DNA from: Sipunculus nudus
Taxonomy: Eukaryota; Annelida; Sipuncula; Golfingiida; Sipunculidae
Length of the DNA stretch: 64,000 nt
Assembly: GCA_026874595.1 (NCBI GenBank)
Contig: CM049310.1
Span: 88,047,556 to 88,111,555, forward strand
Direction: 5' to 3'
The notes beneath the pieces were generated by a model. The model was not told the origin of the DNA, did no database searches, and saw nothing but the letters and a program-made list of their open reading frames with translations. Position 1 is the first letter of the stretch. Each line of letters starts with the position of its first letter. A program made the position numbers and the translations under genes. Positions 5,866 through 54,877 of this stretch are shown here, piece after piece.

Positions 5866-8800
5866 GAGATACAGGATAAGAGGCGCAGTGATGGGGATAC
5901 AGGACTATGAGGCACAGTGATAGGGGTACAGGCTTATGAAGCACAGTGATGGAAATACAGTATTATAAGGCTAAATGAAGGGGATACAGGATTATAAGGC
6001 TCAGTGATGGGGATACAGGATTATAAGGCTCAGTGATGGGGATACAGGATTAAAAGGCTCAGTGATGGGGATACAGGATTATAAGGCTCAGTGATGGGGA
6101 TACAGGATTATAAGGCTCAGTGATGGGGATACAGGATTATAAGGCTCAGTGATGGGGATACAGTATAATTAGGCACAATGGTGGGGATACAGTATAATGA
6201 GGCACAGTGATGGGAATACAGGATTATCAGGAACAGTGGTTGGTATACAGGAATAGGAGGCTAAGGGATGGGGTTACAGGATTATCAGGCTCAGTGATCG
6301 GGATGCAGGATTATCAGGCTCAGTGATGGGGATGCAGTATTATGAGGCTCAGTGAAAGAGATACAGGATTATGAAGCTAAAAGAAGGGCGGTACAGTATT
6401 ATGAGGCCTAGTCATGGGGATAAAGGATTATGAGATTCAATGATTGGGATAGATACAGGATTATGAAGCTCAATGATGGGGATACAGGATTATAAGGCTC
6501 AGTGATGGGGATACAGGATTATAAGGCTCAGTGATGGGGATACAGGATTAAAAGGCTCAGTGATGGGGATACAGGATTATAAGGCTCAGTGATGGGGATA
6601 CAGGATTATAAGGCTCAGTGATGGAGATACAGTATAATGAGGCACAACGGTGGGGATACAGTATAATGAGGCACAATGGTGGGAATACAGGATTATCAGG
6701 AACAGTGGTTGGTATACAGAATTAGGAGGCTTAGGGATGGGGTTACAGGATTATCGGGCTCAGTGATCGAAATGCAGGATTATCAGGCTCAGTGATGGGG
6801 ATGCAGTATTATGAGGCTCAGTGAAAGAGATACAGGATTATGAAGCTAAAGGAAGGGCGGTACAGTATTATGAGGCCTAGTCATGGGGATAAAGGATTAT
6901 GAGACTCAATGATTGGGATACAGGATTATGAAGCTAAATGATGGGGATACAGGATTATGAGGCTCAGTGATGGAGATACAGGATAATGAGGCTCAGTGAT
7001 GGGGATAAAGGATTATGAGGCACATTGCTCGGGATACAGGATTATGAGGCTTAGTGAAAATGATACAGTATTATGAGGCCAAGTGATGGGGATACAGGAT
7101 TATGAGGCTCAGTGAATGGGATACAGGATTATCAGGTACAGTGGTTGGTATACAGGATTAGGAGGCTTAGTGATGGGGTTACAGGATTATCAGGCTCAGT
7201 GATCGGGATGCAGGATTATCAGGCTCAGTGATGGGGATGCAGTATTATGAGGCTCAGTGAAAGAGATACAGGATTATGAAGCTAAAAGAAGGGCGGTACA
7301 GTATTATGAGGCCTAGTCATGGGGATAAAGGATTATGAGATTCAATGATTGGGATAGATACAGGATTATGAAGCTCAATGGTGGGGATACCGGATTATGA
7401 GGCTCAGTGATGGGGATACATGATAATGAGGCACAGTGGTGGGGATACAGAATTATGAGGCTCAGTGATGGGAATACTGGATTATGAGGCTAAATGATGG
7501 GGATAAAGGATTATGAGGCACACTGCTGGGGATACAGGATTATGAGGCTTAGTGAAAATGGTACAGTATTATGAGGCCAAGTGATGGGGATACAGGATTA
7601 TGAGGCTCAGGGATAGGGTACAGGATTATGAGGTTCAGTGATGGGGATGCAGGATTACGAGGCTAAATGATGGGGATACAGGATTATGAGGCTCAGTGAT
7701 GGGGATACATGATAATGAGGCACAGTGGTGGGGATACAGAATTATGAGGCTCAGTGATGGGAATACTGGATTATGAGGCTAAATGATGAGGATAAAGGAT
7801 TATGAGGCACACTGCTGGGGATACAGGATTATGAGGCTTAGTGAAAATGGTACAGTATTATGAGGCCAAGTGATGGGGATACAGGATTATGAGGCTCTGT
7901 GAAAGAGATACAGGAATATGAGACTCAGGGATAGGGTACAGGATTATGAGGTTCAGTGATGGGGATGCAGGATTACGAGGATAAATGATGGGGATACAGG
8001 ATTATGAGGCTCAGTGAATGGGATACAGGAATATGAGGCTCAGTGATGGGGTTACAAGATTATCAGGAACAGTGGTTGGTATACAGGATTAGGAGGCTCA
8101 GTGAAAGAGATGCAGGATTATGAAGCTAAAAGAAGGGCGGTACAATATTATGAAGCCTAGCCATGGGGATAAAGGATTATTAGACTCAATGATTGGGATA
8201 CAGGATTATGAAGCTCAATGATGGGGATACAGGATTATGAGGCTCAGTGCTGGGATACAGAATAATGAGGCACAGTGGTGGGAATACAGAATTATGAGGC
8301 TCAGTGATGAGGATACTGGATTATGAGGCTTAGTGATGGGGATAAAGGATTATGAGGCACACTTCTGGGGATACAGGATTATTAGACTTAGTGACTGGGA
8401 TACAGGATTATGGGGCTTAGTGAAAATGAAACAGTATTATGAGGCCAAGTGATAGGGATACAGGATTATGTGGCTCAGTGAAAGAGATACAGAAATATGA
8501 GACTCAGGGATGGGGGTACAGGATTATAAGGTTCAGTGATGGGGATGCAGGATTATGAGGCTCAGTGATGGGGATACAGGATTACGAGGATAAATGATGG
8601 GGATACAGGATTATGAAGCTTAGTGATGGGGATACAGGATTATGAGGCTTAGTGATGGGGATACAGGATAATGAGGCTCAATGATGGGGATACTGGATTA
8701 TGAGGCACAGTGGTAGGGATACAGGATTATGAGGCTCAGTGATGGGGATACAGGATTTGGAGGCTAAGTAAGGGATGGGGGTACAGGATTATCAGGCTCA

Positions 8801-9256
8801 GTGATGGGGGTACAGGATTATCAGGCTTAGTGATTTGGATACAGGATGATGAAGCTCAATTATGTGGATACAGGATTTTGAGGTACAGTGGTGGGGATAC
8901 AGGATTTGGAGGCTAAGTAAGGGATTGGGGTACAGGATTATCAGGCTCAGTGATGGGGGTACAGGATTATCAGGCTTAGTGATGGGGGTACAGGATTATC
9001 AGGCTTAGTGATTTGGATACAGGATGATGAAGCTCAATTATGGGGATACAGGATTTTGAGGTACAGTGGTGGGGATACAGGATTTGGAGGCTAAGTAAGG
9101 GATTGGGGTACAGGATTATCAGGCTCAGTGATGGGGGTACAGGATTATCAGGCTTAGTGATTTGGATACAGGATGATGAAGCTCAGTGATGGGGATACAG
9201 GATTTTGAGGCACAGTGGTGGGGATACAGGATTTGGAGGCTAAGTAAGGGATGGGG
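5866..9256 (+). repeat. 29-bp minisatellite, about 115 copies
   Basis: Unit close to GAGGCTCAGTGATGGGGATA + CAGGATTAT, with many point variants. Higher-order structure is visible: a block marked by GGGCGGTACAGTATTATGAG recurs near 6386, 6855, 7291 and 8136, offsets close to multiples of 29. The last kilobase has a variant unit with GGATTTGGAGGCTAAGTAAG. Unit length is not a multiple of three and frames are interrupted, so it is not coding. Confidence 0.95.
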
Positions 9257-9360
9257 AACATCACAAACAATGCTGGAACATCACACATAGATTAATAGCG
9301 ATATGTCATTAATTATACGAAATAAGGATCGAGAGTGCTTTATCATTGAGTATTACTTAC

Positions 9361-12300
9361 ACGAATCGCAGGCTTTGTCCGGGATTCACAATAACACACG
9401 GATTGGCAAGGAATTGTCGAGGCTAAACACTTACACACGAATCGACAGGGTTTGTCAAGGCTAAAAACTCACACACGAATCGACAGGGATTTACCCGGGC
9501 TATACATTAATACATAATTAGATAGGGGTTTGTCCGGGCTCAACAGCGTCACAAAGATTGGCGAGATTTGTTGAGGCTAAGCACTAACACGCAGATAGAC
9601 AGGGGTGTCCAGACTAAACACTAACACACGGAGCAACAGGGGTTTGTCCAGGCTAAACACTAACACACGGAGCAACAGGGGTTTGTCCAGGCTTAACAGT
9701 AACACACGGAGTGACAGGGGTTTGTCCAGGCTTAACACTAAAACACGGAGTGACAGGGGTTTGTCCAGGCTTAACACTAACACACGGAGTGACAGGGGTT
9801 TTTCCAGGCTTAACACTAAAACACGGAGCAAAGGGGATTGTCTAGGCTAAACACACACGGAGCAAAGGGTGTTGTCCGGGCTTCACACTAACACACGGAG
9901 TGACAGGGGTTTGTCGAGGCTAAACACTAACACGCAGATAGACAGGGGTGTCCAGACTAAACACTAACACACGGAGCAACAGGGGTTTGTCCAGGCTAAA
10001 CACTTACACACGGAGTGACAGGGGTTTGTCCAGGCTTAACACTAACACACAGAGTGACAGGGGTTTGTCCAGGCTTAACACTAAAACACGGAGTGACAGG
10101 GGTTTGTCCAGGCTTAACACTAAAACACGGAGTAAAGGGGATGGTCCAGGCTAAACACACACGGAGCAAAGGGTGTTGTCCGGGCTTCACACTAACACAC
10201 GGAGTGACAGGGGTTTGTCCAGGCTTCACACTAACACACGGAGTGGCAGGGGCTTGACTAGGCTAAACACTAACACACGGATCAACAGGAGGTTGTCCAG
10301 GCTAAATACTAACACACGGAGCAACAGGGGGTTTTCCAGGCTAAACATTAACACACGGATCGTCTGGGGGCTTTCAGGACTGAACACTAACACATGGATA
10401 GACAGAGGTTTTTCTAGGCTCCACACAACACGGAGCGACAGGGTTTGTCCGGGCTAAACACTGACATATGGATCGACAGGGGTTTTCCGGCCTACACATG
10501 AACATGGATTGACAGGGGTGTATCCAGGCTAAACACAAACACACGGATCAACATGGGTTTGTCCAAGCTAAACACTAACACACAGATCGACAGGGGTCTA
10601 TCTTGGCTCAACACCAACATTCGGATGGACGGGAGTTATCCGGACTAAACACTAACACATGGATTCACGGGAGTTTTCCTGAATAAACACTTAAACACGG
10701 ATCGACAGGGGTTTGACCGGGCTACACACTCACGTACGGATCGACAGGGGTTTGTCCGGGCTAAACTAATACAAATGGATCGACAGGGGGTTGTCCGATC
10801 TTAACACTAACTCACAGATCGACAGGGGTGTATCCGGGCTAAACACTAACACACGGATCGACAGGGGTCTATCTGAGCTATACACTAACATACGGATCGA
10901 CGGGAGTTATCCGGACTAAACACTAACACATGGATTTACGGGTTTTTTTTCTGAATAAACACTAAAACACGGATCGACAGGGGATTGACAAGGCTAACCA
11001 CTAACTTACGGATCGACAGGGTTTTTCCGTTGCTAAACTAATACACGCAGATCGACAGTGGGTTGTCCAGTCTAAACACTAACTCACGGATCGACAGGGG
11101 TGTATCCGGGCTAAACACTAACAACCGGAGTATCAGGGGTTTGACCCGTTTAAACACTGACACACGGATCGACAGGGGTGTATCCGGGCTAAACACTAAC
11201 ACACGGAGTATCAGGGGTTTGACCAGTTTAAACACTGACACACGGATCAACAGGGGTGTATCCGGGCTAAACACTTACACACGGATTGGCAGGGTTTGTC
11301 CTGGCTAAACACTAACACACGGATCGACAGGGGTGTATCCGGGCTAAACACTAAAACACAAATCAACAGGGGGTTGTCAAGGCTAAACACTAACACACGG
11401 AGCAAAAGTGGGTTGTCCAGGCTGAACACTAACACCCGGAGTGACAGGGGTTCGTCCTGGCTAAACACTAACACATGGATCGACAGTAGTTTTCCGGTCT
11501 ACACATGAACACATGGATTGACAGGGGTGTATCCGGGCGCAACACAAACACACGGATCAACATGGGTTTGTCCAGGCTAAACACTAACACACGGATCGAC
11601 AGGGGTGTGACCGGGCTTAACTAATACACACGGATCGACAGGGGGTTGTCCGAGCTTAACACTAACACACAGATCGACAGGGGTCTATCTGGGCTACACT
11701 AACATATGGATCGACGGGAGTTATCCGAACTTAACACTAATACATGGATTTACGGGGGGTTTCCGAAATAAACACTAACACACGGATCGACAAGGGTGTA
11801 TCCAGGCTAAACACTTACACTCGAAGTGACAGGGGTTTGTCCAGGCTAAAAACTGACACACGGATCGACAGGGGTGTATCCGGGATAAACACTTACGGAT
11901 CGACAGGTGTCTATCTGGGCTACACTAACATATGGATCGACGGGAGTCATCCGGACTTAACACTAACACATGAATTTACAGGGGGGGGTTCCTTAATAAA
12001 CACTAACACACGGATCTTCAAGGATGTATCCGGGCTAAACACAGGGGTTAATCCGGGCTAAATGCTAACACACGGATCGACAGGGCTGTATCCGGCCGGG
12101 CTTAACACTAAAACACGGATCGACAGGGGTGTATCCAGCCGGGCTTAACACTAACACACGGATCAACAAAGGGTTTTCCAGGCTAAACACTAACACACGG
12201 ATGAACAGGGGTGTATCGGGCAGGGCTAAACACTAACACATGGATCGACAGGGGTGTATCCGGCCGGGCTAAACACTAACACAACGATCGACAGGGGTGT

Positions 12301-12615
12301 ATCCGGGCTAAACACTTACACACGGAGTGACAGGGATTTGTCCAGGCTAAACACTAACACACGGATCGACCGGTGTGTATTCGGCCGGGCTAAACACTAA
12401 CACACGGATCGACAGGGGTTTTTTCCAGGCTAAACACTAACACTCGGATCGACAGGGGGGTATCCGGGCTAAACATTTACACACAGAGTGACAGGGGTTT
12501 GGCCTGGCTAAACACTAATACACGGATCGACAGGGATTTGTCCAGACTAAACACTATCACACGGATCAACAGATGTTTGTCCAGACTGAACACTAACACA
12601 CGATTCAACAGGTTT
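9361..12615 (+). repeat. 39-bp minisatellite, about 80 copies
   Basis: Unit close to GGCTAAACACTAACACACGG + ATCGACAGGGGTTTGTCCA. Because 39 is a multiple of three, long frames open on both strands (plus-strand 13-residue repeat SRLNTNTRSDRGL, minus-strand LRVLVLSLDKPLS). Frames break often, none has a proper gene context, and both strands being open argues against a gene. A roughly 343-bp block is duplicated (GCAGATAGAC at 9591 and 9934). Confidence 0.95.
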
Positions 12616-29089: not shown

Positions 29090-30692
29090 TTGGCACCGCA
29101 GGTGCCAAAGTATCCCCAGACAATTAATCCCCCCTCCCTTAAGAATAGGCCCCCATCTTCAGCAAAAATTAATATCAGACCACACTCATAGAAAAGGTCA
29201 CTCTCATAGAAAAGGTCATGACCCCAATTTCAATATAGATCATCCCCTAACCCGTGTCTATGTATATGCATAATATGAAAGAAATCTGTCCATTAGTTTT
29301 GGACTCATAATGCTCACAGTACTGTTAAATGGCAATGATGGGGTACTAAACGGCACGAAAACAAGTAAAAGAATAACAGGTGGTGCTATCAGTTTCCGGT
29401 ACATGACAAAACTATCCAAGATCTTCGGTCAAGTTGATTTTTGGACCAATCAATGCATCCCTTATTGAGATATTAATGATTTTGTGTGGTTTTCACTATA
29501 TATGGCAATATTCAAGGTCAATGCCACTCTCATAGGAAAGGTCATGACCCCAATTTGAATAAACATCATCCCACAACCCATATCTATGTATATGCATAAT
29601 ATGAAAGAAATCTGTCCATTAGTTTTTGAATTATAATGCTCACAGTACTGTTAAGTGGCAATTATGGGGTCTTAAACGGCACGAAAACAAGTAAAAGAAT
29701 GCAAGGTGGCGCCACCTGTTTCTGACAATACTATCCAATATCATCGACCAAGTTGATTTTTGGACCAATCCATGCATCCCTTATTGAGATATTAATGATT
29801 TTGTGTAATTTTCAACATATATGGCAATATTCAAGGTCAAGGCCACTCTAATAGGAAAGGTCATGACCCCAATATATATATACATCATCCCATAACCCAT
29901 GTCTATGTATATGCATAATATGAAAGAAATCTGTCCATTAGTTTTTGACTTATAATGCTGACAGTACTGTTAGGTGGCAATGATGGGGTATTAAACGGCA
30001 CGAAAACAAGTAAAAGAATAACAGGTGGCGCCACCTGTTTCCGGTACATGACATTACTATCCAAGATCTTCAGTCAAGTTGATTTTTGGACCAAACCATG
30101 CATCGCTTATTGAGAAATTAATGATTTTGTGTGATTTTTACCATATATGGCAAAATTCAAGGTCAAGGCCACTCTCATAGAAAAGGTCATGACACCAATT
30201 TATATAAACATCATCCCATAACCCATATCTATGTATATGCATAATATAAAAGAAATCTGTCCATTAGTTTTTGACTTATAATGCTAACAGTACTGTCAAG
30301 TAGCAATTTTGGGAGTCTTAAACCGCACGAAAACAAGTAAAGAATAATAGGTGGCGCCACCAGTTTCTGGAACATGACAACCCTATCCATGATCTTCCAT
30401 CAACTTGATTTTGGGATCAATCCATGCAAGATTTCTTGAGATATTTAAGAATTTGTGTGATTTCTCCAAAAATTGGACCTATTCAAGGTCAAGGACACTC
30501 TCCTTTTCAAGTTCATGACCTCATTTTAAATAGGCGTCGTCCTCTCACCCATATCTATACATATACCAAGTTTGGTTAAGATCCGTGAAATATTTTTGGA
30601 GTTATCGCGCCAACAAGATTTATATGCGACGGCGGCGGCGGCGGCGGCACCAGTATGAAAACATAGTATCCCGCGACTTTGTCTGGGGATAC
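29090..30692 (+). mobile_element. putative non-autonomous element enclosing a 326-bp tandem array
   Basis: Left end: a perfect 8-bp hairpin TTGGCACC-GCA-GGTGCCAA (29090-29108) followed by AGTATCCCCAGACAA. Right end: TTGTCTGGGGATAC (30679-30692), the reverse complement of that 14-15 bp motif. Between them lie about 4.3 tandem units and a (CGG)n run at 30629-30648. No open frame. The inverted ends suggest a DNA-transposon-like or composite satellite element. A target-site duplication was not established. Confidence 0.5.
29190..30610 (+). repeat. tandem array of 319-326 bp units
   Basis: The anchor GGTCATGACC recurs at 29214, 29540, 29859 and 30185 and, degenerate, at 30511. Each unit has TATGTATATGCATAATATGA, CATTAGTTTTTGA, CGGCACGAAAACAAG, a GGTGGCGCCACC palindrome (best at 30022-30037), and TCAAGGTCA at 29512, 29831, 30157 and 30483. 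Units are about 85-90% alike. Confidence 0.9.
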
Positions 30693-31499: not shown

Positions 31500-32277
31500 A
31501 CAACAGTTATTTATTGTTAACTATGTACATTAACTCGCCCGTCGGTCTTTGTAACACCTGTTTCAAGGCTTGTATAAGAAAATACTGCAGATTTGGTACG
31601 ATTAATGATAAATAAGTTCACACTGCTGTGATTGTTCTACAACAACAGTATGTAAGTACATGTACATGATTAGTGTGATGAAGTATAAAATTATGACCTC
31701 TCAGCACCGGCGTGCAGCCACGCCAACAATGACATCACAGCCACGCCTACAATGACGTCAGAACCACATGTACATTAAGTGTCCAAAAGTCACACGCAAA
31801 ACAACAACAATACTCAATAGTGTCTTGAGAAATGTTGGACACATCGTCCAGCAAATGAATTTGAACCTCAGTATATATGAAATGTCACGTTTCACTGGCG
31901 TTTCTTAGTTCTGTTCTTTCTTTGGTCTTCAGCATATTTGAAGCTGGTTCAAACTAGCTGAAAATATGGCTGCAGCCATCCGGGTCCTTTCTCTGCCGAT
32001 TCACGCCATATGAATATTCATGATCACATTAGATTGAGACAATGACCGAAAGTATTACAGTTTCACAATTTTCTCTTGCAGTCATACTTCGGAGTCAAAC
32101 ATGAGATAAACCAACCGGAAGCGGAAATCGTGATCAGACATGATGGCTGAAATAACTTCTTGTCAGCACATGCAGAGATGCATCCTGGGAGCACAGTTTA
32201 ATAAATAATGCTACACAATGTAAGATCAGGCGCAAGTCTGCTTTACTGAGATTACACAACAATTTTTCCTGTGCAGG
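31500..32277 (-). other. probable 3' untranslated and downstream region of Lhx2/9
   Basis: No open frame. On the minus strand an ATTAAA lies at 32197-32202 and an AATAAA at 31510-31515, so the transcript could end about 100 or about 770 nt after the stop. A tandem 23-bp duplication (31715-31760) carries a TGACATCA and a TGACGTCA site. Which signal is used cannot be told from sequence. Confidence 0.4.
31715..31760 (+). promoter_or_regulatory. tandem 23-bp duplication with CRE-like sites
   Basis: Two adjacent copies of CAGCCACGCCWACAATGACR + TCA differ at two bases. The second contains a full CRE palindrome TGACGTCA (31753-31760), the first TGACATCA. It is about 520 bp past the Lhx2/9 stop codon, either in the 3' UTR or just downstream. 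Confidence 0.4.
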
Positions 32278-32544
32278 TCAGTTGAGCGTGTTCATTGTGT
32301 TACCGAATAAATCACTGATGCTGTTTCCGCTTTGATGGTCTTCTTTCTCTGTAAATGCCGTGCTCTGGAGCTCGGACAAAGATGGCGTCGAACTAATGTC
32401 TGAGAAAGATGGCGACCGCTCGCCGTCAATTCCTCCGCTTCGGCTTTCGGACTTTCCTTCGGATGACCCTTGACCTGAACCGCTGTCCTGCTGTTGGCGG
32501 ATGAGATTGCGCCGGTACTTCGCTCGTGCATTTTGAAACCACAC
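32278..32544 (-). CDS. Lhx2/9: Lhx2/9 last coding exon: recognition helix and C-terminal tail
   Basis: The acceptor is CTTTTTCACCGCAG|GTGTGG. Translation starts [13 protein letters not shown], joining after homeodomain residue 46, an intron position shared with vertebrate Lhx2/9. The tail is rich in Ser, Gly and Glu and includes [13 protein letters not shown] and a terminal ISDLFGN, loosely like the TNLF end of vertebrate Lhx2/9. A TGA stop is at 32278-32280. The 435-bp intron upstream contains a full cAMP-response-like TGACGTCA at 32755-32762. Confidence 0.95.
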   Translation of the reverse strand: MWFQNARAKYRRNLIRQQQDSGSGQGSSEGKSESRSGGIDGERSPSFSDISSTPSLSELQSTAFTEKEDHQSGNSISDLFGNTMNTLN

Positions 32545-35500
32545 CTGCGGTGAAAAAGCGAAACTTAACTTTATAATTTGTTCAAAAATAGCCAGTACAA
32601 ATTGATAAAGAAGTAATAAATATCGACGTATAGTGTTACTTTAAGGCCATACAATATAAAACATGAAAGTTGCTTTTTGGATTATGTGAATTCAGTCATC
32701 TTTCGGATGATTTCTGGAATCGTTGTCGAGGTACCTGTACTCTGTTAATAAGTATGACGTCATAACGGCTACTATATTACATTTATATAGTCATATTTCT
32801 AAGCCATAATTATTGTTCAAGGAATAACTGATACTGCCAATAATATTTTTGTTTAACATTAACATTGTTTTGTAAAAATATATTTAGAACTTTGTCCACA
32901 ATGAAATTTGTACTGGCAGAGCGCAGATAATACAACGTATGCAGGATTTAAGTTCAGAAATTCTTTCAAATGTCCTCACCTGAAGGACTCTTTTAGAAAG
33001 GCCTGTTTTCTGTGACAACTGTTTCAGGTCCTTGGCGTCGGGGTTCTGATTCAGGGCAAAATACGACTTCATTGTGCGGAGTTGATGATGTTTGAAAGAA
33101 GTGCGCATGCGCTTCTGTCGGTGCTGCTGGGAAGGGTAGCCATCAGGGGACAACGCTGATCCGTCCAGGTCTCCGGGTCCTAGACCTAAAACAATCCAAC
33201 AGACATGTAAAAGTCATCAGGTCCTAGACCTAAAACAATCAAACAGACTTGTAAAAGTATTCAGGTCCTAGACCTAAAACAATCCAACAGACATGTAAAA
33301 GTCATTAGGTCCTAGACCTAAAACAATCAAACAGACATGTAAAAGTCATCAGGTCCTAGACCTAAAACAATCAAACAGACATGTAAAAGTCATCAGGTCC
33401 TAGACCTAAAACAATCAAACAGACATGTAAAAGTCATCAGGTCCTAGACCTAAAACAATCCAACAGACATGTAAAAGTCATCAGGTCCTAGACCTAAAAC
33501 AATCCAACAGACATGTAAAAGTCATAAGGTCCTAGATCTGAAACAATCCAACAGACATGTAAAAGTCATCAGGTCCTAGACCTAAAACAATCAAACAGAC
33601 ATGTAAAAGTCATCAGGTCCTAGACCTAAAACAATCAAACAGACATGTAAAAGTCATCAGGTCCTAGACCTAAAACAATCCAACAGACATGTAAAAGTCA
33701 TCAGGTCCTAGATCTGAAACAATCCAACAGACATGTAAAAGTCATCAGGTCCTAGACCTAAAACAATCCAACAGACATGAAAAAGTCATCAGGTCCTAGA
33801 CCTAAAACAATCAAACAGACATGTAAAAGTCATCAGGTCCTAGATCTAAAACAATCAAACAGACATGTAAAAGTCATCAGGTCCTAGACCTAAAACAATC
33901 AAACAGACATGTAAAAGTCATCAGGTCCTAGACTTAAAACAATCAAACAGACATGTAAAAGTCATCAGGTCCTAGACCTAAAACAATCCAACAGACATGT
34001 AAAAGTCATCAGGTCCTAGACTTAAAACAATCCAACAGACATGTAAAAGTCATCAGGTCCTAGACCTAAAACAATCCAACACATATGTAAAAGTCATCAG
34101 GTCCTAGACCTAAAACAATCCAACAGACATGTAAAAGTCATCAGGTCCTAGACCTAAAACAATCCAACAGACATGTAAAAGTCATCAGGTCCTAGACCTG
34201 AAACAATCAAACAGACATGTAAAAGTCATCAGGTCCTAGATCTGAAACAATCAAACAGACTTGTAAAAGTCATCAGGCCTAGACCTAAAACAATCCAACA
34301 GACATGTAAAAGTCATCAGGTCCTAGACCTAAAACAATCAAACAGACATGTAAAAGTCATCAGGTTCTAGACCTAAAACAATCATTCAGACTTGTAAAAG
34401 TCATCAGGTCCTAGACCTAAAACAATCAAACAGACTTGTAAAAGTCATCAGGTCCTAGACCTAAAACAATCCAACAGACATGTAAAAGTCATTAGGTCCT
34501 AGACCTAAAACAATCAAACAGACATGTAAAAGTCATCAGGTCCTAGACCTAAAATAATCCAACAGACATGTAAAAGTCATCAGGTCCTAGACTTAAAACA
34601 ATCAAACAGACATGTAAAAGTCATCAGGTCCTAGACCTAAAACAATCAAACAGACTTGTAAAAGTCATCAGGTCCTAGACCTAAAACAATCCAACAGACA
34701 TGTAAAAGTCATTAGGTCCTAGACCTAAAACAATCAAACAGACATGTAAAAGTCATCAGGTCCTAGACCTTAAACAATCCAACAGACATGTAAAAGTCAT
34801 CAGGTCCTAGACCTAAAACAATCCAACAGACATGTAAAAGTCATCAGGTCCTAGACCTAAAACAATCAAACAGACATGTAAAAGTCATCAGGTCCTAGAC
34901 CTAAAACAATCCAACAGACATGTAAAAGTCATCAGGTCCTAGATCTGAAACAATCAAACAGACTTGTAAAAGTCATCAGGTCCTAGACCTAAAACAATCC
35001 AACAGACATGTAAAAGTCATCAGGTCCTAGACCTAAAACAATCAAACAGACATGTAAAATTCATCAGGTTCTAGACCTAAAACAATCAAACAGACTTGTA
35101 AAAGTCATCAGGTCCTAGACCTAAAACAATCAAACAGACTTGTAAAAGTCATCAGGTCCTAGACCTAAAACAATCCAACAGACATGTAAAAGTCATTAGG
35201 TCCTAGACCTAAAACAATCAAACAGACATGTAAAAGTCATCAGGTCCTAGACCTAAAATAATCCAACAGACATGTAAAAGTCATCAGGTCCTAGACTTAA
35301 AACAATCAAACAGACATGTAAAAGTCATCAGGTCCTAGACCTAAAACAATCAAACAGACTTGTAAAAGTCATCAGGTCCTAGACCTAAAACAATCCAACA
35401 GACATGTAAAAGTCATTAGGTCCTAGACCTAAAACAATCAAACAGACATGTAAAAGTCATCAGGTCCTAGACCTTAAACAATCCAACAGACATGTAAAAG

Positions 35501-38500
35501 TCATCAGGTCCTAGACCTAAAACAATCCAACAGACATGTAAAAGTCATCAGGTCCTAGACCTAAAACAATCAAACAGACATGTAAAAGTCATCAGGTCCT
35601 AGACCTAAAACAATCCAACAGACATGTAAAAGTCATCAGGTCCTAGACCAACGTCAATTAAACAGAGATGTGAACGAACACAGTCACATAAACGCATAGT
35701 GTATGAATGTACATGAATGCAATCTAAATTTTGTGGATCCCTTTGATTATATATTTATTACCATATGACTCTTTTATCAAAGTTTCGACAATATAAACAT
35801 ATGATATATTCATTAGAAACAGCAAGTATTCACGTTCTCATGAAAATGGGGGCAGGTACATTATAAGAATCAACATTGATGACTGCATGCTTGTCAGAAC
35901 AAGTGTTGTTAATTGCCTTAATACGCACTATATTACCATATATTTATATAGAAAAAAAAACCAAAGTGGTTGTACATATTCATGATTTACATGTACGTGG
36001 TAAAGTGTACGCTGACAAGTTCCTATATACATTCCATCTTTCTACATTACGAACCATTCGAGCATGTTCAAAACGTAAATACAAAGTGTACATTAATAAT
36101 ACAAATATATACAGGCTGAGTATGGGTTCATAAATGCATCATTTTTTTACCTCGTTATGGAGTTTATAATTTTTTTCATTCGTGTTTGCATGCCTGTTTG
36201 CTTGCTGTATGGTTGGTTTGTATGTCTGTTTCCAGAATTACCCAAAAATGTGTATCTGATTTCCACGAACCTTTGTGGACTTGTATTGTTACATAGGCCA
36301 GGAAAGACCACCCTACAGTTTAGTGCTTCATGATCAGGATAATCTTTGTTTTGGCGGTGGTATGCGCTCTACCGAGAACCGTTTCTGGTTATAATGCAAA
36401 ATTGTCACTTTACTTAGTATTACTTTAATACAATGGTAATATGAAATGTTAAAACATACAATCGACGAATATGATCTAATAAATATTTAGGCCCTGACTC
36501 CACAATCGTACAAACACAGATTTATTATTTTTCTTAATAAAAGCACTTTTAAAAAAAATATAAATGTTCTCAGATGTTACATATCGCAACAGTTATTGAA
36601 TGCGTACCTTGGGTTTGTTCCGTTCAGTCACAATATATTGGTGTAACCACACACATTGTAACCCCACGGAAAGAACAAGTCATCGATCGTATTAACAGCG
36701 TATCTAGAAATATAAAATGCATGGGTCACCCATAAGAGTGGTGTATCAAAACTCGGCTGACCGCAGGAATCAGGTTTAATGACATTTTCAAATGTTTTGC
36801 GCGTCCACTGTGTCGCCGCAGGATGTTTGAAAAGTCCGAAGCCAGTCAGGGACTGTTTGTATCAAATGGGACGTACAAAAGACCCGTAGAACTGTTAATG
36901 TTTGGCAGATCCATGGCCGCCCCGGAATGAATCGGTGGCAATACCGGTGAGGGGGCCTGACACACCTGCAAGCGAGGGCAAGACAATGCCTAGAGATCGA
37001 TGACCCCCAGGCCAGAAGAGGCCTCTCTGTTGGTTTTATTGGATAACGTTTAGCTTGATGGGTGCCCCGACACTAACATCGTGATTTTCCGCCTTCAGAG
37101 AGGCGGGATTGTGGGAACGAAACAGCTTCGAGAAACAAACACCCCGGGGAAGGACCTGCCCGGCTCAATACAGCATTCACTGCGTGCTGCCGCCGACAAT
37201 ATCGGCGTTAAAAGCTGCAGACAGCGGCCATGAACGCTACAGAACGCGGGCCACCCTTCCCGTTCTCACGCCCGTTTGACTTACACCTTATGGTCGCCTG
37301 GCCTTTCATGTCGTTTACATAATACTAAATGCTCCTAATCATAACGCACGCCCAACTTTGTCTTACTAATAGGTTCTTGACAAGGATTTTCCGCTCATTA
37401 TTTAATAGTGTGCGACATTAGGCATTATTCAGCAAATTTATTATAACATCACAGATAAACTGTAATTCTTGAAAGATCTTTTCCTTACTCATTATTAAGA
37501 AACTGAAAGAAAGTCAAATTAAAATCTTCAGCGTAGACATTAAATGAACATTTAGATGGTTATGGTGCATTCTGGGTAGGGATGCAAATCCCTGCGCTGT
37601 TTTTCAGTATTAAACGTGTTTTGTTATACATATTCCCAGATTTTTTTTCGAAGGGGGAGGGGGCCGCAGTCCTTAAAATCAGCCCCTGTATTGAATTTTG
37701 AAAGTGTGTCAATAATATGAAATAATTGTATAAAACACCACAAGACGCGCACCACTGACCAAACTGAATAGTCCTGGTTTACTTTGGAACTATATCTACT
37801 TGTACAAGAACTAATCATGTACGTTATGCGCACCAGCACGTCTTGTGCAACTCTCTTACGAGCACGGTCCAACACATGGCGGCGAAACGCACTGGCTGGT
37901 ACCCGGCCGAAAACAGGAAGCGGTAGGGTTTCTGTAAGAGGGCGGAGAGGGGGGCAAAGGAGAAGAAAAGCCGGGCTTTTCCTAACAGGTGCCGTGCGGG
38001 TACCGGGACCCCGGTCTGAAATCTAGACGCACTGTTGTCATTCTGTTTATTGATACATTTCAAGATCATTTTCCAAGCAGCTTGTGGACCCATCAGACGC
38101 AAAATGGAATTCCCTTCAAAAACCGCCGAGATATGTCTTTGATAACATATAGTATTCATACAACAGAACCCTGGATGTACGGCACATGGGTGGCGGCTGT
38201 CCAAGACCTGCACAGTGTACCAGTGATTGCATACCGAGTGGGGTCACTAAACATGCTCCGAGGGTTGATGTTCCAATAATATAACCTGCTATACCCGGTT
38301 CACGGTACATTTTGTAACATGCCACCGGCGAATATACATAATGTTTGCATATAAATGAATATAGTTGTCACAACGCGCCCCTATCGCATTCTCCTAATAC
38401 AAGTGTGCTTTTTCATGTGGGAAATTTGGATCCTTGCAAATCAAATGATCACAGTGATCTATATGCAGTAAATAGCATGTAGTATTCAAATGTGAACCTT

Positions 38501-48691: not shown

Positions 48692-51600
48692 GAAACAAGG
48701 ACGAGAGAGAGAGAGAGAGAGAGAGAGATGCACTTCATTTGAAATGAAATTCGAACAGATAAGGGCAGAATGTGGAACAGACGTGGTTTGGCAAGACGGA
48801 AGCTGTTTAAAGCAAGTTTAGAAGGGTCTGTAACCCAAACCGCTGACCGTTCGGAGCACTGCTTGTTTTAGCTACATGGATACACAGGTTCCGGAAAACC
48901 AACACACTTGTAAATGTTGTCCAGACGCCGTAAACATAACACAGCATGCTGGCGGGCTGGCTGAGAGAGACACCCGGTGTCTTGGTGTTCCTTAACGCGC
49001 TTGTATTGTATAAATCTGTCCGGGTCAGTCTCCGTGGACCAAACCAGAAGGTGGTCTCTGCACAAGACATATGCATGTAGACTTACAACACACACATATC
49101 AAGACATTTTAGTTGGAGACCAGTTTTTGAACTTCTTCTTTTAATCACACCCACGTACTCACACGCACACATTCTATATATAACATATCTAAACTGAATG
49201 AAGTTCTGCAGAGTGATTACCCCCGCCAAGAAACAACAATCCTATAGATACGCCATGATTCAATTAGGTCTTCCTTGGTCCATTTCTCGCTCCGCCTCGT
49301 TAAACTGCTAACAGACCAACCAACAAACACACTATATGTCCTCCATGGCGTTGGTGAAAAATATCATGCATTTATGATAGAGTCTGTATTTTGACCTATA
49401 TTTATACATTTAATGCACAATTTATATTTACCTTTTGAAGATGCATTTTGGTTCACGAGTGAATACATAACCGCCTACGTGGAGTTGATAAATATAACAC
49501 TTACCAAGAGCACCGACAACAGTATCTTGAGATGCTTGACCATTTTTTCTTTTTCTTGGCCTTCCTTTCTGCGGTGCGTTCATTCCATTAAAATACGGCA
49601 GCGGCTGCATGGCGCTGGGTTCCGGCGGAAGTCCATTGGCTACTTCCGGTGTCGGAACACCAGGAGGAAAGTTGCACGGCGTAAGGTATTCGTCCTGTAA
49701 CAACACTTCGTAATGGGCTTGACAGTATATGACGTCATCTTTCATGCCGAAATAGTCCCCCGTATTTAAAGCTTTGTTACACGTGAAGCAAGTGAAACAC
49801 GTTAGGTGATATACCAAGTCCCGTGCGCGCATGATCAATTCGTTAGCTGATATTGACATGTGACATCGTGAGCACCTCTTCACTCCAAACATTCTGTAAA
49901 AAATATAATATTAAAACATAATAATAAATGTTATAGCATTCAAGAACCGACAATTATAAGGTTTATCGCATATAAACAGGTACTAACTCCATCAGGATTG
50001 AGTGTGCGTGTGTGCGTGTGTGTGTATACACAGGAAGCCGTCATCGACCATAAACTGTTGGCAGTTCATTAAATATAAGTACGTCATGTAAACACTTTTA
50101 ATCAATTAAATTTATAAAAGCCGAAAAACATGTAATATGCACAGGCGATATATCAAAAGAAACCTCTATATGCGTTTTTTGGTGTCTATCATACATGTAT
50201 AGGCGAGTCCATGTCCGAACTCGAGTCCACTTTTTTAGAGACTTACACTCGAGGGTTCAGGACTTGTACTCGGACTTACTTAATTGGAGGTAAGGACTGG
50301 AGAGATCAGGTAGGGTCCATCTCGAGTACAGTAGCAAAGAAAGCTCTGTCACAAACTTTTAAGGCTTATATAAAGATGTGCAAACTATACTAATAGAATA
50401 TTATAAAGATAAGATTACATATACCCATCATTAGCTCTGCATCAGGAACATTCAAATACAAGTATGTGCAAACTAATATGAAAATACACAAGAGGATCTC
50501 AAATTTACATTTTAAACCTTCATTATTAAGGAGATTTGTATTTTGGACTTTTACTTTTATAACTCGGAATTGGATTCAGGATTGAAATTACTCGAACTCG
50601 AAGAAGGTGGACTTGGACTCGAACTTCAAGCACTCGGACTTGGATTCGACTCGAAGTGGCCTGGACTCGGATTGCACTCGGACTTTATGATGGTGTGGAC
50701 TCGACTACACCACTGGTTATAGTCAATAAATGCTATCATGGATGTCCAATGAAGAAATTGTCCATGGTTAGGAATTATTTATATTTGAAGTAAATAATTG
50801 GAAATGACTGCATCAGTAACGAGTAAACATGGATACCGCGTCATTTTAAAACCATATTCTGCATTTAGTTATATTTCATGTGTTTTTTTGGCTGTTGATT
50901 CTTGTTGACACTTGCTTGTGTTTGATACATATGTGTACTTTAAAACGATTTGAGGATGGACTTGATGAAACGTAATCGCGTCAAAAAAGAAATCCACATA
51001 AATCACCCCTGCCAGGTTACACTTTATATACACGTGACCGCGTGCAGAACGCCAATTTAAATTTCTTATTCGCTCTTACTGTTGATATGTTTTCACCTAA
51101 TTTGTTTCTACTGATTGGAGCTATTTTTCTCTAATAACCGTGTTGCTGAATGTTTAGAATATACGAAACTAACTCTGTAATTTATCTTGTAAAACTACCA
51201 GGTGTGGAACATTGAGTCAAAAGAACCACCCTGTCGAGAGCGCTCCGAGGGTAGAGGAAAGAATATCAGGTTCATAAACCAAGGGTGGCACTCAATTCAC
51301 AACGTATACAGTACATTAAACGACAGGCTGAAGGCTTTTAATTATGTCTAGAATACATGTGGTTGACAACATTTTGTTTTGCGATCCCGCATTGTACACT
51401 CAAGTACTCTTGCACAATGAAATCAAAGATGTATTCATTGGGTTAGTTGCTTGTAGACCAGCAAAGAAGACCGGGGATAGGGTCCTCAACTATAGAGCGT
51501 CCGCGCTCTACCCCTGCGTTCGGGTCTTGCTGGGGCGCCATTTTGTATCCGGCCTCCCCGCAGCGCGCATGACAATATCCCTGACTTCCCTGCCAAGCTC

Positions 51601-52378: not shown

Positions 52379-54877
52379 AAGGTCTGAGGACCTGTTTTAA
52401 CCTTTTATTTTTCACACTGAATGAATGTCATGACCAAGAACACGCACCCAAGAAATAGTTATTTTATGAGTTTACGTGTTAGTTACTTATAGTGCATTTA
52501 TGTCGGGATATATACATTATACATACAGGAACCGTTTCATATAATGGCAAAATAGCAATGAACAGGCAGATTTATGAAAAAAATAAAATAATATATAATA
52601 TATATGCTCTTATTTCCAAGTGACCGAAATCGTTATATCAAACTTATTTTTCTCTTATAATGAAATGTATATAACGGGACTGAATATATATAGCAGCAGA
52701 TTCCTTCTCTTTATTAGAAGTGAAAATGAATGAAAAAGAATTGGAAAACTAATTCCTTTTGTCAGGTGGGTTGCATGTAACGCGCATGTAATAATATTTT
52801 TAGTGAAAGATAATACATAAACGTTAACAGTTATAGAATATTATTATATTTTATAATATGTATAATAATATAATATTTTTACAATAATTTTTCACGTTAA
52901 AATTGATTGTATTGCTGAATGTACATTTTACCTTGATACAACATATACGGCAACATTAAAAAATAAGAATATTTAAGACTTAAAAGGAAAAGGATCAGGA
53001 ATTACAAAAAATAAATATATTTATATACTCGTGAAGATAAGTCTGGTACTAGTTTTGAAACATAATATTGCTCAGATCATGGATGTCATATGAAATACAA
53101 TATCACTTTTAGATCATATTATGCAAATACACCATGAATATATTGAAGCATACAGGAACGAGACAATATTGATTGATTTAAGGATTCAATTATATCATCG
53201 ACCATGCAGTGTGATGATTTATATTAAAATGCATGGCCTTGCAGTATGGTATATGTTGCACATGTATATACATGTTTCCGACTTGTATTGTTAACGTCCA
53301 TTAGTATAGTACAAGTATGAAGTGAGACCCATCCCGTAGCGAGGCTCATCAAGTTTTCTTGGATTTTTATGAATGGCGCGAGGGCTGTAATATTTTTACG
53401 TTGCCATTTGGGGCGGCTGTTTTTCCGGTGACAAATTACGTCCTTCGAAGTACCAGCCTCGTTTTCAGACACGGCGGTATCGCTCATGACCTGCGAACGT
53501 ATTTCAAAACGACATGTAGAGTATAATCTTCTACGAGCGGACAGATTATCGTATCCTGTAGCAGCAGAGCCTCATTTATAAACGCAAGTTCATGAGAGTC
53601 GTAACCGGGTGTCGAATGAAGCGGAGATTACAGTTCGAGATAGGGACCACATGACAAAGAACACAGTCAGGGAATCCGTCATCGGCGAGCATGCTTCCAA
53701 GTTAGGCAGCGGCGCCCGGCTCACGCGATCCGTGGAAATGGAAGTCGGAATATTAGATGAGTTGTTGATTTAACAGGAAACGCTCCCCATTGAAAGTTAA
53801 ACATTTACCGCTGGTTTCAGGAAACTAGCATATTGAAGATAGTGTTGTATACACGAAACCGGTTGTAGTTGTGATGGAGTGTCCCCTAGACTGGAGCTAG
53901 AAGGTTAAAGACCCAGCACTGAAGAAATACCTCAACGAATGGCGCCATTTCCGGCCGCGGGGCGTGGAGTCTTTAAATGTCTGCCGTGGTGTTTAACTCT
54001 CTTTTATACACTTACACAAGACACAGAACCAGCAAATGCTCAATCTGCATGTCACCAGCGAACTCACGTGCTGAGGTCCCATTACTTCAAAGCTTTAACG
54101 CCAATATATATTCACAAGCCCGCGAAGCAATTTGTTTCTGTGATAAATGGATTCGAGCATCTGAAACTGCATGGTCGCTGTATATGAATACTTGGACACA
54201 TTTTACACCCTCTTAATTGTGTCAATTTGTTACATTCATCTATTACATTAAAATCTCAGACCCCTTCTATCAGTGCTTTTCAACTGAAAAACAATCAAAA
54301 TGATTTAATATTTCATATTCAGAGTTATTCCCATTTAATTTCTCTACCCTCTTGATTTACATTTATATATAGAGAGAGTTGTACATGTATATTGAAACTC
54401 AGAAATTAGAAAATGCATGTAATTAGCTATCTTTGCGAATCTTTGGCCATTTTGGGTATAGTCCTGCCAAGGATATGCTGCAACAAAATACTTTATATTC
54501 TGTTCAGAGAGATTTAAAAGCGAAGTATATTTCTGTCATAGTAAATTGGTTATTATTTTTATTTATATGTCGAACTTTTAGAACTCTTTCTAGAGGTGTC
54601 GTGTCATTTTAATGTAACCATTTTGCACTCTCATTCAATTTTTTTATTCATTGTTGACTGACCTGTAATAATCTTCTTTGCAGTATATTCGGCCATCTTT
54701 GGAAAAACACGTGCCTTGGGTGTCCAATGGCTGTCGACATTCCGCGCAGCGTAAGCAAGTCACGTGCCAGGGCTTGTCGACAGCCAGCAGGTAATATCGT
54801 TCTAGAATCTTCGTCCCGCACGCAGCGCACGTGAAGGCGGGCTCGTCGCACGCGGACAAACCTGTTGTCTGCGCTAC
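32278..54877 (-). CDS. Lhx2/9: LIM-homeodomain transcription factor, apterous/Lhx2/9 family (four coding exons; first exon listed separately)
   Basis: A nuclear transcription factor: two zinc-binding LIM domains (contacts for LDB/Chip and LMO proteins in this family) and a homeodomain that binds TAAT-core DNA. Exons 54877-54663, 49893-49505, 33185-32980 and 32544-32278 join in phases 2, 1 and 0, all at GT-AG junctions, giving 1,077 nt and 358 residues. Counting from the LIM1 exon: LIM1 about residues 17-69 (CAAC, WHVTC, CAEC, CKED), LIM2 about 79-137 (CSRC, YHLTC, CFTC, YCQAH), basic GRPRKRK linker, homeodomain 225-284 with Phe8, Gln50 and Asn51 ([12 protein letters not shown]), then a Ser-rich tail ending [14 protein letters not shown]. 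The block [20 protein letters not shown] is diagnostic of Lhx2/9 over other LIM-homeobox classes. Human LHX2 and LHX9 have 406 and 397 residues, so only about 40 N-terminal residues are missing. Introns are 4.8, 16.3 and 0.4 kb. Confidence 0.95.
32980..33185 (-). CDS. Lhx2/9: Lhx2/9 exon encoding homeodomain residues 1-46
   Basis: A 206-nt exon between acceptor TTGGATTGTTTTAG|GTCTAG and donor CTTCAG|GTGAGG. It encodes [20 protein letters not shown], then [15 protein letters not shown] and the rest of helices 1 and 2 to KRVLQ. A second in-frame acceptor lies six bases downstream (GTCTAG|GACC) and would drop two residues. The exon edge is embedded in a 44-bp tandem array: the first ten exon bases, GTCTAGGACC, recur in about 56 upstream copies. 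The exact start is therefore chosen by frame (the preceding exon ends in phase 1) and by continuity with the homeodomain. Confidence 0.93.
33178..35650 (-). repeat. 44-bp minisatellite carrying splice-acceptor modules
   Basis: About 56 head-to-tail copies of a 44-bp unit, one of them (near 34277) short by one base. On the minus strand each unit reads GGACCTGATGAC, then a T-rich segment, then TTGGATTGTTTTAG|GTCTAG. That is a branch-site-like CTGAT about 30 nt before a T-rich tract and AG. The last unit is the real acceptor of the homeodomain exon. Units differ by a few substitutions: CTAAT for CTGAT, CAG for TAG at four or so units, AAG at a few others. A 16-unit block is repeated at a 704-bp offset, for example GGTTCTAG at 34363 and 35067. 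Confidence 0.97.
43784..43922. repeat. pair of (TA)n microsatellites
   Basis: Two long TA runs, 43784-43841 and 43872-43922, separated by about 30 bp. In the 16.3-kb intron. Confidence 0.95.
45239..45279. repeat. (TA)n microsatellite
   Basis: TA run; a shorter one lies at 45374-45397. Confidence 0.95.
46399..46463. repeat. (TA)n microsatellite
   Basis: Uninterrupted TA run of about 65 bp. Just upstream, 46185-46400 holds two imperfect copies of a segment with ATGTCCGTYAGAATAATA. Confidence 0.95.
47175..47510. promoter_or_regulatory. candidate intronic enhancer dense in homeodomain cores
   Basis: Within 335 bp of non-repetitive sequence there are ATAATTGG, CTAATTAAC, CGATAATTGAT, ATAATTACT, CAATTAG, GATTAATTC, GATTAATTAAG and TTAATTGG, plus CCAAT and SOX-like ACAATG sites. 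LIM-homeodomain proteins bind TAATTR cores, so feedback on the gene is possible. Function is inference. Confidence 0.4.
48632..48728. repeat. (GA)n microsatellite
   Basis: GA run with one 15-bp interruption. Intronic; on the gene's sense strand it reads CT. Confidence 0.95.
49505..49893 (-). CDS. Lhx2/9: Lhx2/9 exon encoding LIM domain 2 and basic linker
   Basis: A 389-nt exon. The acceptor is ATTTTTTACAG|AATG; its first A completes the split AGA Arg codon. The donor is GCTCTTG|GTAAGT, leaving one base of a Gly codon. It encodes [40 protein letters not shown] and YCQAH, then a Pro-rich stretch with LPYFNG and the conserved QKGRPRKRK basic linker, a likely nuclear localisation signal. Reading through the donor stays open to a stop at 49428, so intron retention would also yield a protein ending after the LIM domains. 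Confidence 0.95.
50195..50720. repeat. CTCGGACTTGG-type interspersed repeat, split in two
   Basis: Two stretches (50195-50330 and 50560-50720) are built of ACTCGGACTTGGA-like hexamer-derived repeats, with GTGGACTCGACTACACCAC at the far end. AT-rich sequence separates them. This kind of repeat is common in marine animals; here it lies in the LIM1-LIM2 intron. Confidence 0.55.
52009..52049. repeat. (GA)n followed by a G run
   Basis: GA repeats ending in nine or more G. Confidence 0.95.
52328..52376. repeat. (GA)n microsatellite
   Basis: Uninterrupted GA run. Between this tract and the one at 52.0 kb a segment with ATACATGATATGYCAATAAA occurs twice (about 52060 and 52208), so the GA tract and its flank were duplicated together. 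Confidence 0.9.
54663..54877 (-). CDS. Lhx2/9: Lhx2/9 exon encoding LIM domain 1
   Basis: A 215-nt exon in phase 0 at the start and phase 2 at the end. The acceptor is TTGATTATTTCAG|GTAGCG and the donor is TTACAG|GTCAGT. Translation starts [17 protein letters not shown] and runs through [20 protein letters not shown] to YCKEDYY, with the split Arg completed by the next exon. All eight zinc ligands of a LIM domain are present. YYLLAVDK followed by WH and CFSKDG and YCKEDYYR closely matches vertebrate Lhx2/9 LIM1. No ATG is placed at its start, so a further 5' exon is required. Confidence 0.95.

Follow-up and report, generated by a model that had tools for sequence, protein, structure and literature searches.

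A minisatellite of splice-acceptor modules abutting the homeodomain exon of an LHX2/9 gene in Sipunculus nudus

How would a spliceosome find the right 3' splice site among dozens of almost identical ones? This question is raised by a locus of Sipunculus nudus, in which a tandem array of 44-bp units, each of them resembling a splice acceptor joined to the start of an exon, runs up to the first homeodomain exon of a LIM-homeobox gene. The window, i.e., the whole stretch of DNA that was analyzed, comprises 64,000 nucleotides (NCBI GenBank assembly GCA_026874595.1, contig CM049310.1, positions 88,047,556 to 88,111,555 of the forward strand), and positions given below refer to it unless stated otherwise. 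The answer that we consider probable is that the array is a local passenger minisatellite made of copies of the intron-exon boundary, that its last acceptor wins by exon definition, and that a normal mRNA is most likely retained.

Structure of the array and its acceptors

The array consists of 56 units leading on the gene strand from 35648 to 33186, in agreement with the initial annotation, which had described about 56 copies of a 44-bp unit ending exactly at the acceptor of a homeodomain exon (cf. Table 1). The gene-strand unit reads GTCTAGGACC followed by TGATGACTTTTACATGTCTGTT(T/G)GATTGTTTTAG, the latter part being 34 nt that end in TTTTAG in the consensus. Tandem Repeats Finder reported a repeat at 33176-35671 with a period of 44, 56.8 copies, and 95% matches. 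With tandem units in the range of about 10 to 100 bp and internal variants, the array is a minisatellite. The last TTTTAG is followed once more by GTCTAGGACC, which forms the first ten bases of the exon, and past these the exon departs from the repeat (CGGAG...); with the register fixed, a match at all ten positions has a chance probability near one in a million (4^-10).

A U2-type 3' splice site has an AG, a pyrimidine-rich tract, and a branch-like motif about 18 to 40 nt upstream. As far as its sequence goes, the last unit has all of these, with CTGAT at -32 and TTTAC at -23, and its tract is weak (67% pyrimidine over -20 to -3, a value equaled or exceeded at 16% of 3031 AGs in the window). 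Splicing of the first homeodomain exon at 33186/33185 is a prediction, and the one that fits best. Besides this predicted functional acceptor, the array contains 55 decoys, not 56, because the degenerate upstream-most copy, before 35648, carries TTG where the AG would stand. The modules previously described as about 56 near-identical 3' splice sites are real, and their count has to be amended to 55 decoys plus the predicted functional site. In 51 decoys the AG stands at the exact place and in 4 it comes 1 nt later. Ten decoys are identical to the predicted functional acceptor over -34 to +10 and 18 over -20 to +3, and five have CAG rather than TAG. The branch-site-like CTGAT, in some units CTAAT, noted earlier for each unit was recovered as a yTnAy motif at -32 in 55 of the 56 acceptors (CTGAT in 49, CTAAT in 5, CTTAT in 1), and TTTAC recurs at -23 in 55 of 56. 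All 56 units have a second AG six bases on (GTCTAG/GACC; in the real exon at 33180-33181 of the minus strand), and AGs number 121 in the 2463 bp of the whole array.

When the decoys are read from their own AGs, a stop codon follows 2 to 53 nt past the junction in all 55, and their second AGs likewise give a stop, 26 to 47 nt past it. Since every decoy brings an early stop, decoys cannot lengthen the protein and could only reduce its output. The exons that they would define measure 206 + 44k nt (250, 294, 338 nt, etc., with a maximum of 2669). The second AG of the real exon keeps the frame and drops two residues (356 vs 358).

The gene lies on the minus strand of the window, and its four coding exons, encoding a LIM-LIM-homeodomain protein, read as one open frame. 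The gene model starts at the first LIM exon (54877) and covers these four exons, the first coding exon lying outside it. Pfam detected LIM (two stretches) and Homeodomain in the joined protein, which agrees with the earlier assignment to the LIM-homeobox genes, and gave a weak Homeobox_KN match. A protein search returned 1057 matches; among the 120 listed, those with names were mainly Lhx2, Lhx9, or apterous, mollusc and annelid proteins showed 52-60% identity, and the top row was a bird protein without a family name. The homeodomain is nearly identical to that of aligned relatives. Judged by the predicted protein, in which two LIM domains are followed by an LHX2/9-type homeodomain, the gene is an LHX2/9 (apterous) LIM-homeobox gene. 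The donor at 49505, taken from the start as the splice partner of the homeodomain exon, proved to be a good GT donor, and the 49505 to 33185 junction joins correctly in the open LIM-LIM-homeodomain frame, as G/GT.

Table 1. Features of the LHX2/9 gene and of its array, with positions in the window
Feature	Position	Strand	Remarks
First LIM exon	54663..54877	-	215 nt
Second LIM exon	49505..49893	-	389 nt; donor CTTG/gtaagt at 49505/49504
Degenerate upstream-most partial copy	35649..35671	-	TTG replaces AG; 6 of 23 positions mismatch the unit end
Tandem array, 56 units	33186..35648	-	55 units of 44 bp, 1 of 43 bp; 21 unit variants
Higher-order block 1, units 1-16	34945..35648	-	704 bp
Higher-order block 2, units 17-32	34242..34944	-	703 bp
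Branch-site-like CTGAT of the last unit	33216..33220	-	A at 33217, 32 nt before the exon; motif match only
Predicted functional acceptor AG, last unit	33186..33187	-	in-frame join to donor 49505, gives GLGPGD
First homeodomain exon	32980..33185	-	206 nt; donor CAG/gtgagg
First 10 exon bases, GTCTAGGACC, repeated in the array units	33176..33185	-
Second homeodomain exon, coding to stop (final coding exon)	32278..32544	-

Other tandem arrays are common in the window, and two of them are large: a 29-bp array of about 116 copies with 78% matches at 5868-9245, and an array of 39-bp units with higher periods of 78 and 117 bp at 9359-12602. A 326-bp unit is repeated 4.2 times at 29194-30558, past the 3' end of the coding sequence.

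Origin of the array

A search of the 1.43-Gb genome (153 contigs) with a 133-bp array query gave 24 matches and a single candidate region, this locus. The 34-nt intronic part, allowing up to three mismatches, was matched 56 times in the whole genome, always inside the array, and its reversed control 0 times. As the DNA search skips very common words, its match counts are lower bounds, and the uniqueness of the unit to this locus is strongly, though not absolutely, supported. Translation of the repeated exon bases gives GLGP, and GLGP or GLVP is present in 5 of 17 aligned relatives, namely in Patella (P0004), Haliotis (P0005), Liolophura (P0009), Ylistrum (P0011), and Mytilus (P0109); the site reads MGLGPGENPD in Haliotis, MGLVPGDGHE in Ylistrum, and MGLVPGDGSD in Mytilus. 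This motif makes it plausible that the ten repeated bases are old coding sequence, with the acceptor at 33186/33185 as the best fit. Because the unit was found only here and its exon bases encode a motif of 5 of 17 relatives, the array most likely arose in place by tandem duplication of the intron-exon boundary, and the expansion from this boundary proposed in the initial annotation remains the best explanation.

In such a course of events, a 44-bp segment, made up of 34 nt from the intron end and 10 nt from the start of the homeodomain exon, would have been duplicated in tandem. Slippage or unequal exchange would then have raised the number to 56 copies, with the duplication of a 704-bp block as one of the later steps. 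The order of these events and the direction of the first duplication step are what we infer from the present array. Units 1-16 and 17-32 are identical in 12 of 16 units and differ by 5 edits in total, whereas in 2000 shuffles of the unit order the number of identical units in any 16-unit pair tested never exceeded 8. Block duplication thus accounts for some of the growth, and it came later than most of the unit variants. A match equal to that of the degenerate upstream-most copy occurs at 0.14% of 5000 random positions (array not excluded), and, when extended to 33 nt, this copy has 12 mismatches, which is matched by about 1 in 57,000 positions (array excluded). At the other edge, 14 of the 34 exon bases from +11 to +44 (33142-33175, minus strand) agree with the repeat unit, a score reached or exceeded by 1.7% of 1022 coding offsets; this is a weak hint, too weak to support a claim, that the exon start beyond +10 was once part of the unit. 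Overall, the locus suggests that a minisatellite can start from the splice boundary of an important gene while this boundary remains functional.

For comparison with other homeodomain exons of the genome, 40 of 150 scored homeodomain matches with about 2 kb of upstream sequence were picked by eye (ends at profile positions 44-47). They were flagged if an array with a period of at least 8 came as close as 60 nt to the open frame or extended farther, the acceptors being presumed from sequence. Four of the 40 were flagged for a nearby tandem array, and, when the flagged cases were read by eye, none of the 40 had an array crossing the presumed acceptor. Two short, weak arrays end shortly upstream of it, one of 2.4 copies (L027) and one of 3.1 copies (L030; G000:C3:95966392-95968529), the latter being a degenerate 53-bp repeat that ends 8 nt before the presumed acceptor. 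A second LHX2/9 gene (L009; G000:C5:88037600-88047555) lies on the same contig in convergent orientation, about 36.7 kb from the stop codon of the gene described here. This paralogue shares homeodomain features with it, and its homeodomain exon is entered in the same phase at the presumed acceptor tgttgcag/GACTTAG; no minisatellite was found at this acceptor.

Choice of the acceptor

As identical local sites score equally, context must decide between the acceptors. It had been stated that they are distinguishable only by the exon sequence after the last one, which holds for the local sequence of 10 of the 55 decoys; however, position, i.e., which acceptor is nearest to the downstream donor, and predicted RNA structure differ as well. 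The array leaves 55 decoy 3' splice sites, ten of them matching the real one over 44 nt, and the real site would simply be the copy that touches the exon body. The homeodomain exon, flanked by introns of 16.3 kb upstream and 435 nt downstream, would be recognized as a unit, and the acceptor nearest to the downstream donor and backed by the exon body would be preferred. Strong self-pairing of the array RNA would in addition bury most decoy AGs. The gene would then most likely still yield a normal mRNA, and occasional use of a decoy would lead to an early stop and probably to loss of the transcript by nonsense-mediated decay. Acceptor choice, structure in cells, and decay are steps that we infer.

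A study by Carranza et al. (2022; PMC9225289) describes exons with both flanking introns longer than 250 nt as exon-defined, with the sites closest across the exon being favored, and, for long introns, reports efficient inclusion only of exons shorter than about 500 nt. The introns of 16,319 and 435 nt place the homeodomain exon in the long/long class of that study, which supports the last acceptor without proving it; we took those data as human, and we assume that the rule can be carried over to this animal.

Predicted RNA structure may help as well. Six array units fold at -79.6 kcal/mol, compared with -57.2 kcal/mol (standard deviation 4.4) for 200 dinucleotide shuffles (z = -5.1). In the commonest decoy context, the RNA is predicted to form a 7-bp hairpin, UUAGGUC-UAG-GACCUGA, and the acceptor AG is paired in it with some of the bases of the next unit's branch-like motif. 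The local hairpin holding the AG has -7.2 kcal/mol in 34 of the 55 decoys and -4.5 kcal/mol or lower in 46, whereas at the predicted functional site the exon permits only four pairs (-3.5 kcal/mol). Among the 56 AGs, the functional one had the highest predicted openness at each of three window settings (0.059, 0.063, and 0.039; decoy medians 0.021, 0.014, and 0.007), the decoy at 35560 being practically equal to it at the widest setting (0.039). The second AG of the functional site lies in the hairpin loop and exceeds the first in openness (0.37-0.41), and its use is possible. An Rfam scan of 32000-36500 found no match at gathering scores.

Several observations weigh against this account of origin and choice. 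The functional AG is itself open just 4-6% of the time in the prediction, and AGs flanking the array average 0.33, 0.27, and 0.22 (n = 43). Its value is attained in 13% of 60 trials with shuffled downstream exon sequence and in 17% of 60 trials with random window sequence as the downstream neighbor, so that the gain in openness is partly an edge effect of the kind given by any non-repeat neighbor. In 9 of the 55 decoys the local hairpin is weaker than that of the functional site. Unit variants that break the hairpin show no compensating change in the array, nor does the functional unit stand out by a more open CTGAT. Carranza et al. (PMC9225289) find an overall preference for upstream 3' sites, lessened by exon definition. 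As to origin, 12 of the 17 aligned relatives have neither GLGP nor GLVP. Since shuffled and random downstream sequences reach the functional value, RNA structure is put forward as a possible contributor only, which perhaps helps the choice; as sole selector it was rejected on the same grounds.

The locus is a natural counterpart of a splicing experiment otherwise built by hand, with dozens of near-identical 3' splice sites that differ mainly in their position and in what follows them. If it is spliced faithfully, exon context and proximity strongly override local signals. If it is not, there is a natural link between repeat number and the dose of a developmental regulator.

Alternative explanations

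The strongest competitor, still unlikely in our estimate, is that the decoys are regulatory. A noticeable share of the transcripts would be spliced to internal units, would run into early stops, and would be degraded, and the repeat number would set the productive output of LHX2/9. The means for this are at hand, given 55 decoys of which 10 equal the real site over 44 nt and 5 offer CAG instead of TAG, a stop after every one of them, and the upstream preference seen overall in the data of PMC9225289. However, distal decoys would give long exons (up to 2669 nt), and the decoy AGs are predicted to be more buried than the real one. A sharper form of this idea, a splicing rheostat tuned by copy number, seems rather less likely again: 55 acceptors, ten identical to the real one and most of them buried, would divert a heritable share of LHX2/9 pre-mRNA to stop-containing products, and changes in repeat number would shift the dose of this selector gene.

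We give a small chance to a neutral array whose effects, if any, would be on DNA or chromatin, e.g., as a slippage-prone inverted repeat or a cluster of factor sites, without consequence for splicing. The inverted repeat of the unit, TTAGGTC-TAG-GACCTGA, could promote slippage, and variants that break the hairpin are tolerated, but neutrality by itself leaves the end of the array at the acceptor unexplained, except through its origin.

It is improbable that a pre-existing satellite was inserted in the intron and supplied the acceptor, its match to the exon start being due to chance or conversion. Tandem arrays are indeed common here, with two other large ones in the window; however, the unit was not found elsewhere in the genome by a search that skips very common words, and the exon bases that match it are coding sequence in agreement with several relatives. 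A dispersed-satellite origin likewise found no support in the genome searches with the 133-bp query and the 34-nt part.

An assembly artefact with a wrong copy number is very improbable. The definite order of the 21 unit variants and the unique edges speak for a real array, although its assembled size, taken by itself, may be inexact. Finally, a recursive splicing ladder, with each AG/GT boundary as a zero-length exon for stepping through the intron, is hardly credible and was rejected: GT directly follows 47 of the 56 acceptors, but a ratchet point has an AG with a good donor (GTRAGT) directly behind it, and here most units read AG/GTCTAG, the boundaries match only 3-5 of 9 donor consensus positions as against 7-8 for the three donors of the gene that were checked, and the best donor-like site in the units (CATGTCTGT or CAAGTCTGT), with 6 of 9, lies away from the boundary.

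Comparison with known systems

A full-text literature search limited to open-licence papers revealed no repeated-acceptor array among the listed matches, and PMC7536079, considered as a precedent, is not one. The interest of the present finding rests on its architecture. In tandem or closely spaced alternative acceptors of the NAGNAG-like type, neighboring AGs compete. Each array unit resembles them in having a second AG six bases on, but the array differs in consisting of tens of whole acceptor modules, 44 nt apart and with branch-like motifs of their own. Intronic variable number tandem repeats that affect splicing are a known class, to which the array is similar as an expandable repeat in an intron; we know of none that contains the acceptor-side intron-exon boundary.

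In yeast, the choice of the 3' splice site is reportedly shaped by secondary structure, with structured AGs passed over for a later one (Meyer et al. 2011, Mol Cell 43:1033). The decoy AGs described here are likewise predicted to be held in structure, with a later AG favored, whereas those yeast cases are said to involve single hairpins, each placed between one branch point and a small number of AGs.

The closest relative appears to be a minisatellite that reportedly supplies multiple splice donor sites in one transcript (Turri et al. 1995). The gene concerned would be human 6-16/G1P3/IFI6. Common to both would be units that contain a splice site of the gene (here all 55 decoys have an AG at the exact place or 1 nt from it). 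Unlike those donors, the repeated element of the present array is a putative acceptor with a branch-like motif and an exon start, and its boundary matches only 3-5 of 9 positions as a donor. The initial annotation knew of no described case like this in a LIM-homeobox gene, and no acceptor case turned up among the matches listed in our search either, but minisatellites carrying splice sites as such are reportedly already in print for donors; what would be new here is the acceptor version.

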